Source of the DNA: Curvibacter sp.
GTDB taxonomy: Bacteria; Pseudomonadota; Gammaproteobacteria; Burkholderiales; Burkholderiaceae_C
Assembly (NCBI GenBank): GCA_020248905.1
Contig: JADCGR010000035.1
Span: 1 to 36,402 of the forward strand
Direction of reading: 5' to 3'
DNA length: 36,402 bases
In this document: piece by piece, positions 7,278-20,362 of the stretch
Numbering within the stretch: the first letter of the stretch is position 1
How the letters are laid out: every line of letters starts with the position of its first letter
Notes under the pieces: model-generated
Told to the model about the DNA's origin: nothing
Database searches by the model: none
Seen by the model: the letters and a program-made list of their open reading frames with translations, nothing else
Translations under genes and position numbers: made by a program

Positions 7278-8831
7278 CTAGGCGCCGCCCACATCGCGTC
7301 GAGGATGCGGAGACTCGATTAGTCGCGAGGGCACAGTATCGCGCCTGTAGACATCCTCCACAGTCTCGGCCCGCCGCACCACATCGGCCTGATCGCCGCA
7401 GATCAAAACCGTCGCCGGCCGGGCTAGCGCATTGAAATTCGATGCACTCGATTCCTGATAAGCGCCCGTGTCTAGGAGGGCGATCAGATCGCCCTGCGCA
7501 ACTTCTGGGAGTCTGGCGCCGATTGCGATTTGGTCCGCAAAGCAAGAATGACCGACAAGATCGGCGGTCATTGAGTTCGGCCAATCCGCCTTGTTCGCGA
7601 CAACATGGCGGAAGCGGCTGCGTTCGAAATGCCCACCTGCAAGAAAGAATGTCGTGGTGTCTGTCAGAACCCAGGAATAAGGAAATGGACGGGTCTGCCT
7701 TTTGATGGCCTTTACGCGGGCAAGATGGATGCCCGCATCGCCATACATTGACCTTCCGGGTTCGATCTGTAGCCGCACTCCCTCCGTCGAGACGCGCGCC
7801 GCCTGAAGTTCCCGGCGAAGAGTCCGCACTGCGACGGCCGCATATTGCTCAATTGTTGGGGGAGGCGCACGGAACCGATGCGACGAGAGCACGGGCACCA
7901 AACGGCTTAATGCCTGGTGGTAAACGCTGGCTCCCAGCCCACGCAGGGCCGCCAGAAAGGGGAAGCCCAGGGCGGTCAAGGTGAATTCAGATCGCGGCGT
8001 CTCTTCATTCAGCGGATCGCGTGGACTTGGCCAGCCGCCACCAATATCTATCTCCTGGGGTTGCCAACCATCCCAGGCGGCGATCAATTCCCCCGCGAGC
8101 TTGCCGAAACGAGACATCAAACCTTCCCAGAACCAAAGGCTGGCGTGATGGCGACCTTGATGAACGTGTAGTCCGACCAAATCGATGTTGGGGGAAGCAA
8201 TCGCACGGCGACCCATGGCGACCAGGAACTCTGGAGGGATGCCGGATTTATAGACCTGGATCGCAAGATCGATTGGGACGGTCAACTGAGAGAAGTCAGT
8301 CGGTCGCCATAGATTGGGGACGGTCGGTTTTACGCGGAGGCGGATCTTCGCCGTCCGTCCCTGCTCGGCCGCCACCGCCTGAATGAGATCAATCTCATCG
8401 ACGTCTTCGACAGTAATCCTCACCCCTGCATGCACGCAGCGCGCCAGATAGTCCCGGCTTTTGCCCCCGCCATTAACTGACACGAGCGCCCGGTCTACCG
8501 GCGTGCTGAGGACACCCTCCAACTCGTTCGGTGAATATACGTCGGCTCCGGCGCCTTCGTCTGTGAGGATTCGCCGGCTGGCCAGGGTGGTGTTGGCCTT
8601 GAACGCCGGCATCACGTCCACCGGACCTTCCCACTCGGCGGCGAATGCGGCGCGGAATCGGCGCACGTTGCCCCGCAGCTGACTCTCAGACAGCACGAAC
8701 AAGGGCGTTCCAAACCGCGCTGCCAGATCAACCGTATCGAGTTCCTCAACGTACAGGTGACCCCCGCGCGTGGAGATGCAGTCCGCTGAACCCACTGCGT
8801 CCTTCCCCTCGCCAACTATTCTTCGTACCAT
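7278..8831 (-). CDS. Fold-III PLP decarboxylase (LysA-like, atypical)
   Basis: 517 residues of the fold-type III PLP family (diaminopimelate/ornithine decarboxylase). Seen: PLP lysine K78 in MPAFKANTT, barrel motif GLHVHQGRH (H222, H224) in place of the usual GxHxHIGS, glycine loop DIGGGW (262-267), phosphate-binding EPGR (357-360), the cross-subunit Cys C430 in GHSCFADQ, and GAYQESSASNFN near 456-467. True diaminopimelate decarboxylases have Glu right after this Cys; here it is Phe431, which argues for a substrate other than diaminopimelate. At over 500 residues it is longer than the usual 400-450. GGAG precedes the ATG, and the gene overlaps the end of the reductase gene by 16 bases. Related enzymes act in polyamine, siderophore and antibiotic pathways; the substrate here is unknown. 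Confidence 0.85.
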   Translation of the reverse strand: MVRRIVGEGKDAVGSADCISTRGGHLYVEELDTVDLAARFGTPLFVLSESQLRGNVRRFRAAFAAEWEGPVDVMPAFKANTTLASRRILTDEGAGADVYSPNELEGVLSTPVDRALVSVNGGGKSRDYLARCVHAGVRITVEDVDEIDLIQAVAAEQGRTAKIRLRVKPTVPNLWRPTDFSQLTVPIDLAIQVYKSGIPPEFLVAMGRRAIASPNIDLVGLHVHQGRHHASLWFWEGLMSRFGKLAGELIAAWDGWQPQEIDIGGGWPSPRDPLNEETPRSEFTLTALGFPFLAALRGLGASVYHQALSRLVPVLSSHRFRAPPPTIEQYAAVAVRTLRRELQAARVSTEGVRLQIEPGRSMYGDAGIHLARVKAIKRQTRPFPYSWVLTDTTTFFLAGGHFERSRFRHVVANKADWPNSMTADLVGHSCFADQIAIGARLPEVAQGDLIALLDTGAYQESSASNFNALARPATVLICGDQADVVRRAETVEDVYRRDTVPSRLIESPHPRRDVGGA

Positions 8832-14014: not shown

Positions 14015-15421
14015 TCACTTCTTCTTTTCCGGCCGCTTCCAGTTGCTCAGGCTTACCTGCGTGGCCCGCGCCACCGTGAGCACGCCGGGCGCCGTGTCCT
14101 TGGTGATGGTGGAGCCACCGCCCACCGTGCCGCCAGCGCCAATGGTCACAGGCGCGATGAGCACGCAATTGCTGCCGATGTGTACATCGGCCTCGATCAC
14201 AGTGGTGTGCTTGTTGGCTCCGTCGTAATTGGCCGTGATGCTGCCCGCGCCATAGTTCACGCGCTCGCCCACCTTCGAGTCGCCGATGTAGGCGAGGTGA
14301 TTGGCCTTGGCGCCCCTGGCCAGCGTGGAGGCCTTGATCTCGACGAAGTTGCCGATGTGCACCTCATCGCCCAGCCGGGCGCCGGGGCGCAGTCGAGCGT
14401 ACGGACCAATCAGCGCGCCGGCGCCGACCTCAATCCGGTCTTTGGCGCTAATGCCGCCCTCGATATGCGTGTAGGCATGGATGACCGCACCGGCCGCAAT
14501 ACGGGCGTTGCTGATGAAGCAGTGCGCGCCGATGCGCACACCCTCGCCCAGCTCGACCTCGCCAGCGAAGATGCAGTTGACGTCGATCTCCACGTCCTGG
14601 CCGCAGCGCAGCTCGCCGCGCAAATCGAAGCGCGCCGGATCGGCCAGCCGCACGCCCTGCTCCATGAGGCCTCGCGCCACGCGCTGCTGGTACGCGCGCT
14701 CCAGCTCGGCGAGCTGCACGGGGCTGTTGACCCCGGCCACCTGCAGCGCATCGCTGATACGGTGGCCCACCACGGGCACGCCCTGCGCCACTGCAAGCTT
14801 CACTACATCGGTCAGGTAGTACTCGCCCTGGGCATTGCGGTTGTTGAGCTGGCCCAGCCAGGGCTTGAGCAGGCGTGCGGGCGCGGCCATGATGCCGCTG
14901 TACACCTCGCGGATCTGGCGCTGTGCCTCGCAAGCGTCCTTGTGCTCAACGATGGCCTGCACCGCGCCCGCGCCGTCGCGCACGATGCGGCCGTAACCCG
15001 TGGGATCGTCAAAGGCAATGGTGAGCAAGGCGAGCTTGTCGCCGCCGCAGGCCTCGATCAGGACACGCAGCGTGTCGGTGTGCGTGAGCGGCACGTCACC
15101 CGAGAGCACAACCACCATGCCGTCATCCGGCAGGGCGGGCACCGCCTGCTGCACGGCGTGCCCCGTGCCCAGCTGTGGCTCCTGCCGCACGAACTGCAGC
15201 AAGCCGCCGCCGGGATGCACCACGCCCGCCTCGACCTCGGCCGCGCCATGGCCGGTGATGACGACCACGCGCCGCGCGTTCAACCCTGCGGCCGTATCAA
15301 CCACATGCTGCAGCAGCGCGCGCCCGGCCAGACGGTGCAATACTTTGGGCAAACGGCTCTTCATGCGCGTGCCCTTGCCCGCCGCCATCACCACCACATC
15401 CACTGCCTGTACTTGATTCAT
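14015..15421 (-). CDS. glmU: Bifunctional UDP-GlcNAc synthesis enzyme GlmU
   Basis: GlmU acetylates glucosamine-1-phosphate and then transfers UMP to give UDP-N-acetylglucosamine. The 468-residue product has the N-terminal nucleotidyltransferase signature MAAGKGTRMKSRLPKVLH and LSGDVPL, and a C-terminal left-handed beta-helix of hexapeptide repeats (IGAHCFISNARIAAG, IGPYARLRPGA, NYGAGSITANYDG). I place the start at 15421 (MNQVQAVDVVVMAAG); an ATG 33 bases upstream is in frame but would lengthen the product beyond the conserved start. The start codon shares bases with that of the divergent lipoprotein gene. Confidence 0.96.
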   Translation of the reverse strand: MNQVQAVDVVVMAAGKGTRMKSRLPKVLHRLAGRALLQHVVDTAAGLNARRVVVITGHGAAEVEAGVVHPGGGLLQFVRQEPQLGTGHAVQQAVPALPDDGMVVVLSGDVPLTHTDTLRVLIEACGGDKLALLTIAFDDPTGYGRIVRDGAGAVQAIVEHKDACEAQRQIREVYSGIMAAPARLLKPWLGQLNNRNAQGEYYLTDVVKLAVAQGVPVVGHRISDALQVAGVNSPVQLAELERAYQQRVARGLMEQGVRLADPARFDLRGELRCGQDVEIDVNCIFAGEVELGEGVRIGAHCFISNARIAAGAVIHAYTHIEGGISAKDRIEVGAGALIGPYARLRPGARLGDEVHIGNFVEIKASTLARGAKANHLAYIGDSKVGERVNYGAGSITANYDGANKHTTVIEADVHIGSNCVLIAPVTIGAGGTVGGGSTITKDTAPGVLTVARATQVSLSNWKRPEKKK

Positions 15422-16292
15422 GCGTCTGCCCGAGAAAAACACCTTGGCCCGCATTATCGGCGCGCTGCTGCTGGCATTGCTGGCGGGCTGCAGCGCGGTG
15501 AAGACGGGCTACAACAACGCGCCCAGCCTGCTGTACTGGTGGCTCGACGGCTACGTCGACTTCAATGACGCGCAGACGGGCCTCTTGCGGCAGAGCCTTG
15601 AAGAACTGCAGGCCTGGCATCGCCGCGAGGAGCTGCCGGTCTATGCCAGCCAGCTGCGCGAGGTCCAGCTGCTCGCGGCCGGGCCGGTCACGCCCGCGCA
15701 GGTCTGCCCGCAGTTCGAGCGCGCGCGCGGCCACCTCACGCGGGCCAGTCTGCAAGCCGCCGAAGGCTTGGCACGCCTGGCGCCGACGCTCCAGCCCGAG
15801 CAGCTGCGCCACCTGGCTCGCCAGTTCGAGAAGCACAACAAGACCTGGCGCGAGGATTGGCTGGTCGGCTCCCCCGACGAGTTGCTGGAGCGCCGGCTCA
15901 ACCGCACGGCCGATCGCTACAGCGATTTCTACGGCCGGCTCAGTGACGCACAGCTGGGCCTGTTGCGCCAGCGGCTGTCGGAATCGGGCTTTGACGCGCG
16001 GCTCGCCTGGCGCGAGCGACTGCGACGCCAGCAGGACCTGCTGGCTGCGCTGCAGCAGCACCGCGGCGCCGATCGCCCCGCCCACGTCAAGGCGGAGATG
16101 CTCGCCCTGGTGCAGCGCAGCCTCGAACCCCCGGATCTCGCGGCTCGCCAGCAGCTTGAGCAGGTGTTGCAACACGGCTGCCAGACGCTGGTGCTGCTGC
16201 ACAACAGCGCCAGCGCCGAGCAACGCCGCCGCCTGGCCGGCAGGCTGCGCGGCTACGAGGCGGACGTGCAGGCCCTGATGGCCCCGAGGTGA
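15420..16292 (+). CDS. DUF6279 family lipoprotein
   Basis: 290 residues with a type II signal peptide whose lipobox LLAGC puts the lipid on C24. The segment after it, KTGYNNAPSLLYWWLDGYVDF, matches the conserved opening of DUF6279 proteins; the rest is helical, rich in Leu, Arg and Gln. Function unknown; an outer-membrane lipoprotein anchored on the periplasmic side is likely. The ATG at 15420 overlaps the glmU start (CATG at 15419-15422), so promoters for each gene must lie within the other. No good ribosome site is visible. Confidence 0.88.
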   Translation: MRLPEKNTLARIIGALLLALLAGCSAVKTGYNNAPSLLYWWLDGYVDFNDAQTGLLRQSLEELQAWHRREELPVYASQLREVQLLAAGPVTPAQVCPQFERARGHLTRASLQAAEGLARLAPTLQPEQLRHLARQFEKHNKTWREDWLVGSPDELLERRLNRTADRYSDFYGRLSDAQLGLLRQRLSESGFDARLAWRERLRRQQDLLAALQQHRGADRPAHVKAEMLALVQRSLEPPDLAARQQLEQVLQHGCQTLVLLHNSASAEQRRRLAGRLRGYEADVQALMAPR

Positions 16293-16329
16293 GGGCCAAA
16301 CACCCTCTTGCCTCTCGGAATCTGCTGTG

Positions 16330-16364
16330 CAAAATAGAAAGCCCGGTGGGTTTCCCCACCGGGC
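16330..16364 (-). terminator. Rho-independent terminator of the tracrRNA
   Basis: A perfect 10-bp GC-rich stem (16341-16350 with 16355-16364, GCCCGGTGGG on the plus strand) and a 4-base loop, followed on the minus strand by TTTCTATTTT. It is oriented to end leftward transcription, the direction of the tracrRNA-like gene. On the plus strand there is no T-tract. Confidence 0.85.
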
Positions 16365-16427
16365 GGGTACGAATCTTTCGATTCTTATTGCAGCAACGGC
16401 TCTCACCCCAGAAAACAGCCGACAAGG
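16330..16427 (-). ncRNA. tracrRNA-like gene of type II-C CRISPR
   Basis: Read leftward, the sequence has the order expected of a type II-C tracrRNA. The anti-repeat includes GGGGTGAGAG (complement of 16400-16409), an internal bulge CCGTT, then GCTGCAATAAG ending near 16384, very like the Neisseria-type GCTACAATAAG as I remember it. A nexus-like hairpin GAATC-GAAA-GATTC lies at 16371-16384, and the final GC-rich hairpin and T-rich tail follow at 16364-16330. The anti-repeat pairs with the lone repeat at 19212-19246: 8 pairs including 2 wobbles, a bulge, then 9 uninterrupted Watson-Crick pairs. The 5' end is uncertain; the upstream sequence is now Cas9-like, so the native promoter may be lost. 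Confidence 0.8.
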
Positions 16428-16702
16428 GCGAATCCCTGAATCTGCAGCGGCGCAACGCCAGACTTTTGCGACGACGGCTGTACCGCCGCGCGTGGCGGCT
16501 GACCAAGCTCGCGCGCCTGCTACGCCGAGAGGGCCTGATCCAGGATACGATTTTTTTCAGATCGCAACCTTCTATCACCGACACAAGCTGGGCGCTCCGA
16601 AGAGCGGGGCTGGACCGCCTGCTAACACGGACCGAATGGGCGCGAGTGCTTTATCACCTTTGTAAGCATCGGGGTTTCCACTGGTCCAGAAAGGCCGAGT
16701 AG
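16418..16702 (+). pseudogene. cas9: Truncated cas9 fragment (type II-C)
   Basis: The in-frame translation from 16418 begins ADKGESLNL, continues with the arginine-rich bridge helix (RRNARLLRRRLYRRAWRLTK) and LLRREGL, then SWALRRAGLDRLLTRTEW and VLYHLCKHRGFHWSRKAE. This order matches residues about 45-150 of type II-C Cas9, including the diagnostic KHRGF. The RuvC-I start (LGLDIG-type) is absent upstream, where the tracrRNA-like sequence lies antisense. A TAG at 16700-16702 stops the frame; a few more codons (PKAEGDEKK) still look Cas9-like, and then similarity is lost at an A7 run. The open frame nominally starts with GTG at 16289, but its first 43 codons are antisense tracrRNA. No nuclease domain remains, so it cannot be an active Cas9. 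Confidence 0.83.
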
Positions 16703-17051
16703 CCCAAAGCCGAAGGCGACGAAAAAAAGCGTAGGTCACCAGGCAGCGCAGGACGATCATCGCAGCCAACGTCGCTTCGTTGCGACGTACCGCAGCCGCC
16801 AACCTGCGCTTCGGCGGCACGCCGGTGTTGTCGGACACCGCCTGCAGTGACACCAGCGGACGATCACGTTCGGCTGCGTTGGACCTCCGTGCCGTGGCCA
16901 TGATGTTCTGGTGACTGCGATCCGCTGCGGTGCGGGTGTTGTCGCACCGCGCCGCGCTGCCGCCGGCGTACTTCCCGACCGCTCGACATCCGGTAGTAAG
17001 ATCGCGCCGCTGCATACCTCATCCTTTTACGCCGCAGAAACCTAGCCGAAA
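16703..17051. other. Non-coding stretch after the cas9 fragment
   Basis: No convincing gene. The first 35 bases may still be cas9 remnant. Two hairpins occur, at 16823-16840 (6-bp stem) and 16927-16950 (8-bp stem). Both contain GGTGTTGTCG, 111 bases apart. Frames on both strands are arginine-rich and look like chance. Confidence 0.45.
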
Positions 17052-18137
17052 GTGACAAGCACCGATGTCAATCTGCGTCCGCCTCGCACGCCACAGGCGC
17101 GCGGCGCGAATGCGGGCGGGATCGTTCGCTATCTGGCTGTCGTCGGCGTGGCGTTTCTGGCGCTCTTGATGATGCTGGAAACCGATGTGGGCTTCGCCGC
17201 CCCGCCGGCCGCCCGTCTGTTGTTCTGGGTACTCCAGATTGCCTCAGGCTTGATCACTCTGCAGGCGGCGCTGTATCTGCTGACTCGGCGCCTGGGCGCA
17301 AGCCGGCTGCCCAGCTGGTTTCTTGTGCTGTTTTCGGGAGTGCTAGGGGCCGTCGTGCTCGCGCCGATTTACTGGTTGATCGGTGAAGGGCTGATGCAGG
17401 GCTGGTTTGGCTACCCGGCCCGTCCCGACGAGAGTGGCGATGATCCGCTGGGCTTCTTGTCGGACATCCCGATCCTCAAGGAATACCTAGAGATCGTCGG
17501 CCCAGTAACGGCATCGTGGGCGCTGATCTGTTTGTCGCGTCTGCACTGGCTGGTGCCTCCGCTGTTGCGCGCGCCAGTCGACTCCCAAGTGCAGGAGCCG
17601 CGTCGCGCGCCTGCGACATCGCAGGAAGGGGTGCGCTCGGCGGAGTCGACCTCCCAGCCTGCGCCGCCAGTTCCCGGCCAGCCTCCCGACGCCAGTGACG
17701 CGGACGACGCTTTACCTGTCGCATCCGACAATCTCGGACCGCCCGGTGCTGCGGCGAGTATTTTCCCGCCGCGTGGATCGTGGCGCGATCGCCTCCCGTT
17801 GGAACTCGGCTCGGACGTCATCGCGGTCGCCTCGGAACTTCAGTACCTGCGGGTCTGGACGCCGCGCGGCTGCGCGCTGATTCTCGGCGCCCTCGCGGAT
17901 GTCGAGTCCGAGGGCGCTGACAGCGGTCTGCGGGTTCACCGGTCATGGTGGGTTTGCCGCGAACATGTCGTCAGCGTACGGCGCACTGCGGCAGGGACAG
18001 TGTGCGTGATGAGCGACGGTCGCAAGGTGCCCGTCAGCCGCCGCCGAAGCGCCGAGGTACTTGCGCGCTTCGGCGACGGTGCCCAGTTTCGCGTCGAAAG
18101 GCGGTCAGAAACTGTAGCGCACACCAACCTGAACTGA
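17052..18137 (+). CDS. Membrane-anchored LytTR DNA-binding regulator
   Basis: 361 residues from a GTG start. Four predicted membrane helices (about 26-44, 55-77, 88-113 and 151-170) are followed by a Pro/Ala-rich linker (180-250) and a C-terminal LytTR domain (about 258-350: PLELGSDVIAVASELQYLRV, RVHRSWWV, VSDGRKVPVSRR-type core). LytTR domains bind direct-repeat promoter sites. A membrane-bound version without a receiver domain suggests direct sensing at the membrane. No ribosome site is obvious, and the next in-frame ATG lies inside the first helix. Its last 33 bases overlap the convergent barrel-protein gene. Its position inside the CRISPR relic suggests insertion or a deletion junction. 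Confidence 0.85.
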   Translation: MTSTDVNLRPPRTPQARGANAGGIVRYLAVVGVAFLALLMMLETDVGFAAPPAARLLFWVLQIASGLITLQAALYLLTRRLGASRLPSWFLVLFSGVLGAVVLAPIYWLIGEGLMQGWFGYPARPDESGDDPLGFLSDIPILKEYLEIVGPVTASWALICLSRLHWLVPPLLRAPVDSQVQEPRRAPATSQEGVRSAESTSQPAPPVPGQPPDASDADDALPVASDNLGPPGAAASIFPPRGSWRDRLPLELGSDVIAVASELQYLRVWTPRGCALILGALADVESEGADSGLRVHRSWWVCREHVVSVRRTAAGTVCVMSDGRKVPVSRRRSAEVLARFGDGAQFRVERRSETVAHTNLN

Positions 18138-18782
18138 GACCGGGTTGTACTTCAGCGGACCGATGGTGCCGCCGGAGTTGCCGGCCTCGTTGTCCAGGTT
18201 AACCGAGCCCACATGCAGCCAGCGCGCATCGGCGGTCAGTCGCCACTGGGGCGTGATCGCGTATTCCGTGCCGGCAATCAGCTGGTAGGCGAACTTGTTG
18301 GTGGAATAGCTGCGCTCGCCCCCCCCTGCGCTGGGCTTCAGATCGATATCGATCTCCTGCACCCAGCCGATGCCGGCACCCAGATACGGTGTCCACGCGC
18401 CGCCGGAGGGGAAACGTCGCAAACCGTTTATCAGAAGGGTGTTGGATGCATAGTCGCCATCGCTGGCGATGGTGGCGCCGCCGCTTTTCAGGCTTTTGAG
18501 AGAGTGGCGGCGGTAATTCCACTCGACTTCTGCGGCCCAGCCGTTGCCGTAACGGTAGCCGAAGTCGCCACCAAAGCCCCAGCCATTGCCAAACTCGGCT
18601 CGAAGGCCGGTGCCAGCGCCGCTTGCGCCTGACTCGGTCAGGTCCGAGGACGAGATCCGGCTGGACTGCCCGTAAATCGTTGCGTAAAAACCTTTGGGCT
18701 CAGCCTGTGCAAGCGCCGAAGCGGGCACGAGGCCGACGCACAGCAGGGGGCCAAGCAGTCGAGAAAGGGCACGCTTTAACAT
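18105..18782 (-). CDS. Outer-membrane beta-barrel protein
   Basis: 225 residues. The signal peptide (about 1-25, ending ASALA) is followed by alternating strands with Gly and aromatic residues (GNGWGFGGDFGYRYGNGWAA, YLGAGIGWV, LIAGTEYAITPQWRL) and the C-terminal Phe of VGVRYSF, the outer-membrane insertion signal. It fits the small 8-stranded OmpW/OmpA-like barrel families. GGAG stands 10 bases before the ATG. Function is not visible; it may be a target of the convergent LytTR regulator. Confidence 0.88.
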   Translation of the reverse strand: MLKRALSRLLGPLLCVGLVPASALAQAEPKGFYATIYGQSSRISSSDLTESGASGAGTGLRAEFGNGWGFGGDFGYRYGNGWAAEVEWNYRRHSLKSLKSGGATIASDGDYASNTLLINGLRRFPSGGAWTPYLGAGIGWVQEIDIDLKPSAGGGERSYSTNKFAYQLIAGTEYAITPQWRLTADARWLHVGSVNLDNEAGNSGGTIGPLKYNPVSVQVGVRYSF

Positions 18783-19211
18783 AAGTGAGATTCTCCAAAA
18801 AACATGTCAATAAAACAGGACGAATGCCAGTCGGAAGTACGACGGCGCATGAATCTTATGGGGCATGGGAAGGCTCATCAATCTTCGGTGAATCAGCGGT
18901 AGCCGCCTTGAACGAGCGGTTGCCCAGCCCGGTACACGCAAGCCCGTTGTCGCACCAGCGGTCTTCCGGCTACATGGGCGGCCGGGGTACAGCCAGCAGA
19001 AGCCGTGCGCAAGCGGGCGGGGTTTTCCCCAGTCTTGGCATGGGCCGGTGCCATCGGCTGACGCAGGCCCAACGTCTCACGCGAGCGCAACATCGGCAGG
19101 CGGTGGATCGTTCGAGGGTGCGCGCAAGCCAGTGCGCAATCGTCGGGAAAACGCGCGGATGGCCGCCGGGCATGCGTCCGATTCGACGCACACTCTTGCA
19201 ATGCGTGACTG
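18783..19211. other. Long intergenic region, no gene supported
   Basis: Upstream of the barrel gene. Open frames on both strands exist but have random-looking composition and no ribosome sites. No further copies of the CRISPR repeat were found here, so if an array existed only one repeat remains, next to this region. Confidence 0.45.
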
Positions 19212-19246
19212 GTTGTAGCGATACGGGTGAGAGAGGGAGCTACAAC
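19212..19246 (-). CRISPR. Solitary type II-C CRISPR repeat
   Basis: A 35-base unit (36 with 19211) whose ends are perfect inverted repeats: GTTGTAGC at 19212-19219 and GCTACAAC at 19239-19246. Read on the minus strand it opens GTTGTAGCTCCCT and continues CTCTCACCC, closely resembling the 36-base Neisseria-type II-C repeat, which opens GTTGTAGCTCCCTTTCTCA. Bases 1-8 and 14-22 pair with the anti-repeat of the tracrRNA-like gene at 16384-16427. No second repeat is seen one spacer away on either side, so this is a terminal or leftover repeat, not an array. Confidence 0.75.
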
Positions 19247-19273
19247 GCGGAAAAGCGCTAGCTTTGCAAAAGA

Positions 19274-20293
19274 TCAGCCCTGCAGCGCAGCCCACATCTC
19301 CTTGTCACGCTCGGCTGTCCAGATGCGGGGGTGCTTGATGCCGCTGGCCTCGTCGTAGGCCCGGCTCACATCAAAGGGCAGGCAGTGCTCGTAGATGAAA
19401 ACGTGGCCGAAAATGGGGTCCATGGCTTTGCGGGTGTGCGCCATGGCGGCCTTGAGGTCCATGCCCTGGGCCACCGCCTCCTGCCCGGCCTTGTAGAGGG
19501 TCTGAACCCAGCGCTGGGTGTAGTCCAGCGCCTTGTTGACATTGACGCTGCCCTTCATGGCCTCGCCGCGGCCGGGCACCAGAGCCTCGGCCCGCAGCGC
19601 GCGCAGGGCCTCCAGTGTGGCCGGCCATTCGGCCAGCTGGGCGTCACCCGTGTAGACGCCAGCCTCGTACTCGACCAGATCCCCCGAGTACAGCACCTTT
19701 TCCTCCTCGACCCAGGCGATGGTGTCGCCACGGGTATGCCCGGGCCCCGGGCTCCAGATCTGCACGACCACGCCACCAAGGTTGATGCTGAGCTTGCCCG
19801 GCACCTCGCCCTGGGTTTGCCCGTTGGCGCCAGTGACCTGGCGCGTGGGGTCGCCCCCGCCGATGACCAGGGTGGGCCAGGTCAGGCCGGGTACGGTCTC
19901 GGCGTTGCGGAACAGACGCGGGAACCGCTCCATCTCGCTTTTCATGTCCTGCGCGCCGCGCTCCCTGATGAGTTCCAGCGTGCCCTGGCTGGCGATGATC
20001 TCGGTGGCGCCTTGCGCAGCGTAGGCATAGGCCCCCAGCACGCGTACCGCGTGGTAGTGCGTGAGCAGCACGTACTTGATGGGCAGGTCGCTGACGGTGC
20101 GGATCTTGCGGATCAGATCCTGCGCCATGGCGGGTGTGGCCGTGGCGTCGCTGACCATGATGAAGCGATCGCCGATGATGACGCCCGAGTTCGGATCGCC
20201 CTCGGTGGTGTAAGCCCAGCAATGCGGGCTGAGTTGCTCGAAGGTGGTTTTCTTGTCGGCCAGATCGGCTTGCGAGGCAAAGGCTTTGCTCAT
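19274..20293 (-). CDS. MBL-fold hydrolase with altered metal motif
   Basis: 339 residues with the metallo-beta-lactamase fold. The first metal motif reads THYHAVRVLG (78-87): the HxH pair (H79, H81) is kept, but the following Asp-His of HxHxDH is replaced by V83-R84. Later ligands look intact: GPGHTRGD (H186) and YSGDLVEYE (D205). A C-terminal helical part with YEHCLPFDV follows. AAGGAG precedes the ATG at 20293. A subfamily with the THYHAVR sequence does exist among proteobacterial MBL proteins, as I recall, so the change is probably a family trait and not damage. Substrate unknown; one metal site may be lost or rebuilt. Confidence 0.85.
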   Translation of the reverse strand: MSKAFASQADLADKKTTFEQLSPHCWAYTTEGDPNSGVIIGDRFIMVSDATATPAMAQDLIRKIRTVSDLPIKYVLLTHYHAVRVLGAYAYAAQGATEIIASQGTLELIRERGAQDMKSEMERFPRLFRNAETVPGLTWPTLVIGGGDPTRQVTGANGQTQGEVPGKLSINLGGVVVQIWSPGPGHTRGDTIAWVEEEKVLYSGDLVEYEAGVYTGDAQLAEWPATLEALRALRAEALVPGRGEAMKGSVNVNKALDYTQRWVQTLYKAGQEAVAQGMDLKAAMAHTRKAMDPIFGHVFIYEHCLPFDVSRAYDEASGIKHPRIWTAERDKEMWAALQG

Positions 20294-20362
20294 TGGGTCT
20301 CCTTGAAAATGCCGGGTCGGCAGGCAGGGCGGGCAGACACCGCAGCAGGTACGGCCGCCCGA

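Follow-up and report, generated by a model that had tools for sequence, protein, structure and literature searches.

The DNA analysed here is a contig of 36,402 nucleotides from Curvibacter sp. (assembly GCA_020248905.1, contig JADCGR010000035.1; the window, below), and our subject is the interval in it that is bounded by a gene for a DUF6279 protein and a gene for a metallo-beta-lactamase (MBL) fold protein. As far as its sequence allows a judgement, this interval is very probably the fossil of a single type II-C CRISPR-Cas9 locus that came to lie there. In an intact type II system the trans-activating CRISPR RNA (tracrRNA) pairs with the repeat of the CRISPR RNA, RNase III trims, and Cas9 binds and cuts. 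The pieces that remain in the window are, in this order, a tracrRNA on the minus strand, a fragment of cas9 on the plus strand and one repeat on the minus strand, and this arrangement is that of intact loci. An earlier note on this DNA had proposed that the tracrRNA and the repeat are the leftover RNA parts of one CRISPR-Cas9 locus, and our results bear this out: both have counterparts in an intact II-C family, arranged and oriented alike, and the tracrRNA is joined to a piece of cas9 of that type. The picture of a locus reduced to RNA parts was right for those parts and overlooked the cas9 fragment at 16412-16699, as well as the deletion that cuts the anti-repeat. We accept a common origin of the pieces because they are homologous to intact loci, and not because of the energy of their duplex.

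The features of the remnant are given below; R1 is a covariance model of tracrRNAs made in this analysis, and L066 is the locus with the nearest relative of the window's tracrRNA.

16329-16409, minus strand: tracrRNA remnant, based on the R1 match (16329-16412), identity to L066, hairpins in a co-fold and a terminator scan
16341-16364, minus strand: rho-independent terminator (terminator scan)
16371-16384, minus strand: nexus-like hairpin (co-fold)
16387-16409, minus strand: truncated anti-repeat, part of the tracrRNA remnant
16409-16416, no strand: deletion junction, where the anti-repeat runs into codon 42 of cas9 (codon 1 being the ATG at L066 9432)
16412-16699, plus strand: cas9 fragment of 96 codons, Cas9 residues 42-137 in L066 numbering
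19211-19246, minus strand: lone CRISPR repeat, GTTGTAGCTCCCTCTCTCACCCGTATCGCTACAACC, best read as 36 nt

Intact relatives of the remnant exist. When window positions 16320-16720 were used as a query, 10 of the 299 family genomes searched were matched, the source genome included. Three of the matched loci, L020, L021 and L023 (genomes G134, G221 and G176), contain a tracrRNA, cas9 frames of 1131-1160 codons, cas1, a Cas2-like open reading frame (ORF) and an array, in this order. L150 and L151 (G193 and G095) encode cas1 and a Cas9 that is 62-64% identical to that of G134, and in L149 (G064) Cas9 is in pieces at 32-36% identity next to a cas1 at 89%. L022 (G065) is a 3.7-kb contig holding the start of a locus, and in L152 (G089) the contig stops 10 bases past a 25-residue cas9 match. 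The match in L153 (G150) is 27 nt long; R1 gives a truncated tracrRNA-like stretch there (7465-7534) a weak score of 27.5 bits, and cas9 and cas1 were not found in 16 kb of this locus.

R1 was built in two steps. A profile, A1, of the window's cas9 fragment and four relatives was used to scan named genomes, and 80 of 134 confirmed loci were kept, mostly from Betaproteobacteria as judged by their record titles. In 79 of these 80, a tracrRNA-like stretch is located upstream of the cas9 region, at the anchor match (in L129, about 1 kb away). Thirty-one of these stretches and that of the window make up alignment A2 (32 sequences), from which R1 was derived. A2 has 13 predicted pairs, eight of which show changes on both sides in at least one sequence. 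R1 scores the window RNA at 92.7 bits (E 1.5e-18), the window RNA being itself one of the 32 seeds. Since Rfam gave no match in the window at its gathering thresholds, the RNA assignment rests on this model. The tracrRNA is 95% identical to that of L066 over 88 nt, and it has the three parts expected, an anti-repeat, a nexus hairpin and a terminator, though the anti-repeat is truncated on its 5' side. The pairs of the nexus are absent from the RNAalifold consensus of A2, where the alignment is gappy.

The truncation is explained by the sequence that adjoins it. Alignment with L066 places L066 9313-9400 on window 16329-16416 and L066 9556-9842 on window 16413-16699, so that a net 159 bp is missing from the window relative to L066. 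The lost segment held FGLDIGIASVGW, which in the start of the L066 Cas9 we take to be the RuvC-I motif, together with the 5' part of the anti-repeat and a predicted promoter (TTGCCA-17-CATAAT); L066 9250-9650 gave no other promoter-like site. A consensus scan of window 16250-16700 and 19000-19400 gave no promoter-like site, and the site predicted in L066 falls in the deleted segment, so that no promoter of its own was found for the window tracrRNA; such scans can neither exclude other promoters nor prove that a promoter was lost. The plus-strand ORF 16289-16702 is a product of the deletion: it is Cas9 sequence from 16412 on, and an in-frame TAG at 16700-16702 ends the fragment, while similarity at the DNA level reaches about 16720. 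The contig of L066 ends within cas9 and covers neither its repeat nor the rest of its locus.

The fragment was recognised as Cas9 by PADLOC (E 3.6e-16) and by TIGR01865 (E 5.3e-19; 68 bits, the cut-off of the model being 100), and it matched no Pfam family. Its amino acid sequence is 85% identical to that of L066 over 91 residues (1-91 of the fragment) and 69-75% identical to those of L020-L023. Residues 42-137 of Cas9 presumably correspond to the bridge helix and the start of the REC lobe. Between the fragment and L066, dN is 0.118 and dS 1.44, the latter near saturation; 15 non-synonymous and 23 silent changes were assigned to the window branch, three and nine to the L066 branch, and 18 could not be assigned. 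Given these figures, most of the divergence arose under selection, before the locus decayed. Of the positions with a conservation of at least 95% across the other 80 loci, two are altered in the window fragment; among those loci themselves, 55 have no such altered position, 22 have one, two have two and one has three. The pattern of change fits a recent loss, without proving it.

The lone repeat starts with GTTGTAGCTCCCTCTCTCACCC on the minus strand of the window, and belongs to the GTTGTAGCTCCC family of repeats, which are 36 nt long with a conserved 5' part. Its first 22 bases are identical to the repeats of L020 and L021, differ at one position from that of L023, and are also equal in the commonest repeats among the intact arrays compared. 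It departs from its family by one missing C and two or three substitutions, all past position 19, and is 87-92% identical to full G134 repeats over 34-40 nt. The genome has no other copy when up to 3 mismatches are allowed over the first 23 nt, and the window has none even when 14 are allowed over 36 nt; an array would need two or more repeats with spacers, and only one repeat is present. Phages gave no match to the 37 nt that adjoin it. The repeat could plausibly be the cas-distal, degenerate end copy of an array. A rough script applied to 37 intact arrays placed the more degenerate end copy at the distal side in 10 and at the proximal side in two, with both ends equal in 25; the idea is only plausible because in those 10 arrays the differences sit in the first 14 bases, unlike those of the window repeat.

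Repeat and anti-repeat pair as the earlier note had described. Bases 1-8 of the repeat (GUUGUAGC) pair with the complement of 16387-16394 through six Watson-Crick and two G-U pairs, both by inspection of the sequence and in the co-fold, which then has a 5x5 internal loop where five bases on each side had been said to bulge; bases 14-22 (CUCUCACCC) pair perfectly with the complement of 16400-16408. While these pairing positions stand, the outer boundaries were corrected: the repeat, given as 19212-19246, covers 36 nt at 19211-19246, and the anti-repeat ends at about 16409 and not at 16427, because the sequence from about 16410 onward is cas9 coding sequence brought in by the deletion.

The remainder of the interval does not contain the rest of the locus. 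Searches of window 15400-20300 with three Cas9 and three Cas1 proteins (tblastn) gave nothing above chance beyond the fragment, and the Cas2-like ORFs of three intact relatives had no match there at E <= 1. Of the Cas9 with RuvC and HNH nuclease domains that a type II-C locus has, only residues 42-137 remain, RuvC-I being deleted and no further cas9 being found; its cas1 and cas2 genes were not found at the remnant either. The following genes were identified in and around the interval:

15420-16292, plus strand: left flanking gene, DUF6279 (PF19795, E 5.2e-14)
17052-18137, plus strand: gene for a LytTR-domain protein (PF04397, E 7.8e-12)
18105-18782, minus strand: gene for an outer-membrane beta-barrel protein (OMP), convergent with the LytTR gene (PF13505, E 3.3e-21)
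19274-20293, minus strand: right flanking gene, MBL fold (PF00753, E 2.4e-14)

The end of the MBL gene is 27 bp from the lone repeat. The LytTR and OMP genes, which are unrelated to the CRISPR locus, occupy the span expected for the remainder of cas9 and for cas1, cas2 and the array. The LytTR gene was found at E <= 1e-20 in two of the 299 family genomes searched, the source genome itself and G224 (61% identity), and in G224 the gene adjoins a relative of the same OMP gene (72% amino acid identity over 204 residues), so the two genes probably moved together. In 14 kb of G224 no repeat or tracrRNA was detected above shuffled sequences, and R1 had no match at E <= 0.1. We propose that the interior of the locus would have been lost through at least two deletions, one of them perhaps coupled to the arrival of the LytTR/OMP pair, which left its outer two ends. 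Four further ORFs (16578-17015, minus; 18785-19258, plus; 18896-19201, minus; 16327-16662, plus) matched no Pfam family below E 0.1, and the stretches 16721-17051 and 18783-19210 carry no assigned feature. The idea that the terminator of the tracrRNA serves the DUF6279 gene was rejected, as the scan detects a terminator on the minus strand only.

The source genome contains a second type II locus, on contig C19 (L002 5113-10361). It is separate from the remnant and comprises a cas9 of 1018 codons (TIGR01865, 580.7 bits), a type II cas1 (TIGR03639, 243.4 bits), a cas2 (TIGR01573, 61.8 bits) and 13 repeats of 36 nt whose sequence is unrelated to the lone repeat, with its own anti-repeat upstream of cas9. 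The window fragment and this divergent Cas9 are the only Cas9 sequences found in the genome. The tracrRNA and the lone repeat might be imagined to survive as functional guide RNAs, either serving the C19 Cas9 in trans or acting in regulation, as tracr-L and scaRNA do; a regulator of that kind takes a cognate Cas9 and a target in a promoter. We regard such survival as highly unlikely. It is true that the paired segments still form a duplex, that the two hairpins past the duplex are intact, and that a full-length Cas9 is present in the same genome. However, the C19 Cas9 is only 28% identical to the Cas9 of this type (that of G134) and has a repeat family and an anti-repeat of its own, which makes it unlikely that it uses the remnant RNAs. 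The predicted promoter is deleted and no other was seen in the consensus scan, no phage matches the 37 nt beside the repeat, and a tracrRNA detected by R1 is present in one of the 26 genus genomes searched, the source genome, and in none of the 25 others. Hardly more credible is a more specific version, in which a minimal guide pair, consisting of the 22-nt paired part of the repeat, the truncated anti-repeat, the nexus and the terminator, would have been kept, would be read from a neighbouring promoter and would serve another Cas9 or act as a regulatory RNA. If it were true, tracrRNA plus single repeat, which also occurs in genome G478 (see below), would be a unit that has been retained repeatedly, rather than merely one step in the loss of a locus.

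The pair of RNAs in the window is most likely a dead remnant that is functionless now, because it has lost the predicted promoter, RuvC-I, HNH, cas1, cas2 and the array, and a Cas9 of its type was not found elsewhere in the draft genome. Several observations weigh against this reading. The cas9 fragment has remained open for 96 codons and its changes are mostly at silent sites, so decay may be recent or incomplete and a retained role is conceivable. Also, the 22 repeat bases that face the truncated anti-repeat match the family, except for one missing C of the CCCC run that costs one pair, and the substitutions in the repeat fall where the anti-repeat partner was deleted; as an argument for retained pairing the latter is weak, because intact repeats vary at their 3' ends too. 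Finally, the comparison used one genome per species, and the source genome is a draft of 65 contigs.

The tracrRNA with the cas9 fragment on the one hand and the repeat on the other could also come from two different CRISPR loci that were joined by a rearrangement. They are separated by 2.8 kb and two unrelated genes, and the missing base and the substitutions set the repeat apart from its family; but both pieces are of the same II-C type, are complementary to each other and have the order and orientation of intact loci, and we consider a double origin very improbable. The earlier note had argued that so close a match is unlikely to arise by chance. This conclusion is upheld by homology; the pairing, to which it gave too much weight, does not suffice for it. 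Shuffled sequences pairing as stably, together with an absence of II-C matches, had been named as the outcome that would speak against the claim: matches to II-C loci exist, and when the repeat was shuffled 2000 times with its dinucleotides preserved, 2 of the products reached the duplex energy of -29.3 kcal/mol. Moreover, among the 24,172 36-nt tiles of the GC-rich window, not counting the surroundings of the repeat itself, 25 form a more stable duplex with the repeat than does the best tile of the tracrRNA. The stability of the duplex is thus only moderately unusual, and the pairing by itself is insufficient for the claim; a chance pairing of two GC-rich non-coding stretches is nevertheless refuted, as tracrRNA, repeat and cas9 fragment are each homologous to intact loci.

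We then compared the same site in related genomes. Some part of window 15400-20300 is matched in 22 of the 26 genus genomes (the source genome included), and the DUF6279 and MBL genes are neighbours in 12 other genus genomes, to which the comparison was applied. None of the 12 has a tracrRNA match above shuffled sequences at the site, and 11 have no repeat match. In the twelfth, G318, a degenerate lone repeat lies on the minus strand at L055 2796-2827, and about 23 bp separate it from the point where the same MBL gene ends. Queried with the G134 repeat, it reaches a local score of 40, whereas the best of 20 shuffles reaches 26; the window repeat as query gives 33 against 27, and a family consensus gives 36 against 30 in 200 shuffles. 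R1 had no match in L055 or in the 6-8 kb on either side. The G318 assembly is listed with 8% contamination, yet the repeat sits between two genes of the genus. We infer that the site may have held an array of this repeat type twice, or once in an ancestor. Cas9-like A1 matches occur in three other genus genomes, G301, G317 and G229 (the last at E 6.6e-4). As a separate observation, about 93 bp of the 3' end of the MBL gene is duplicated in L055 (1857-1949 and from 2848 on), with the copies about 1 kb apart across other DNA.

At E <= 0.001, R1 detected tracrRNAs in 11 of the 299 family genomes and 22 of the 399 order genomes, which are a sample and not a census; the hits come from 32 distinct genomes. 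A Cas9 match lies beside the tracrRNA in 27 of the 32 (in G089 a match of only 25 residues, close to the contig end), the source genome has the fragment in the window, and in four no Cas9 was found. One of the four is G488, whose contig stops 34 bases past the tracrRNA. In two others, G237 and G287, the tracrRNA is reduced to its 3' part (L172 3522-3623, 39.3 bits; L173 7559-7647, 32.8 bits); these have modest scores and have no cas9 or cas1 in 14-15 kb and no repeat above shuffled sequences. The fourth, G478 (L195 14539-15776), has a complete tracrRNA that R1 scores at 91.5 bits without its being a seed, and a single repeat 1.1 kb away; a search of 16 kb gave no match to cas9 or cas1, and the contig ends 258 bp beyond the repeat. 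This remnant resembles that of the window in consisting of a tracrRNA and one repeat, and differs in that its anti-repeat is not truncated and that an inverted repeat is present. In L195 14603-15776, the anti-repeat and the lone repeat form the ends of this 150-bp inverted repeat (84%), which runs about 115 bp into the DNA between them; a 141-base query taken from it matches only those two places in the G478 genome. One possibility is an element whose insertion site is the end of the repeat sequence.

The remnant shows how a CRISPR-Cas9 locus can fall apart, with the interior going and the outer ends, tracrRNA and repeat, persisting. To our knowledge, array finders that need repeated units are blind to a single repeat. 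A tracrRNA covariance model detects the other end of such loci, and its broad use would allow past CRISPR losses to be counted; conversely, a tracrRNA match alone does not imply a working Cas9 system. The type of decay is ordinary: this is a known kind of decayed locus, seen here at unusually clear resolution. Mildly new are the clean survival of the two ends beyond the interior, for which G478 offers a second example, and the occurrence of a lone repeat at the corresponding site of G318.

Degraded loci have been described before. In Mollicutes, at least 8 of 21 type II CRISPR-Cas9 loci are inactivated or degraded by the authors' count, and one array has a putative tracrRNA with no cas genes identified (PMC6882279); these are other bacteria, and the passages of that paper at hand do not mention a tracrRNA with a single repeat. 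Isolated cas loci are also already in print (PMC5294841, seen in part). Among the papers listed in a literature search, judged mostly from titles and the starts of abstracts, there was none that names an orphan tracrRNA with a single repeat, which is not proof that none is published. Among known systems, the closest are the II-C loci of Betaproteobacteria, such as L066 (the metagenome-assembled genome WY5.bin97), L076 (Comamonas granuli) and L083 (Nitrosomonas nitrosa), which have a tracrRNA and a cas9 N-terminal region as in the window; the repeats of L076 and L083 belong to the family of the window repeat. In contrast to these loci, the window has no findable RuvC-I, HNH, cas1, cas2 or array, and its anti-repeat is incomplete, the missing part having gone together with the predicted promoter. 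Among the best matches of A1 are the Cas9 chains of PDB entries 6JE3 and 6JDV (E 9.4e-22 and 9.9e-22, positions 4-94 of 96), which we take to be Neisseria meningitidis Cas9. Whereas these are complete, solved enzymes, the window keeps residues 42-137 only.

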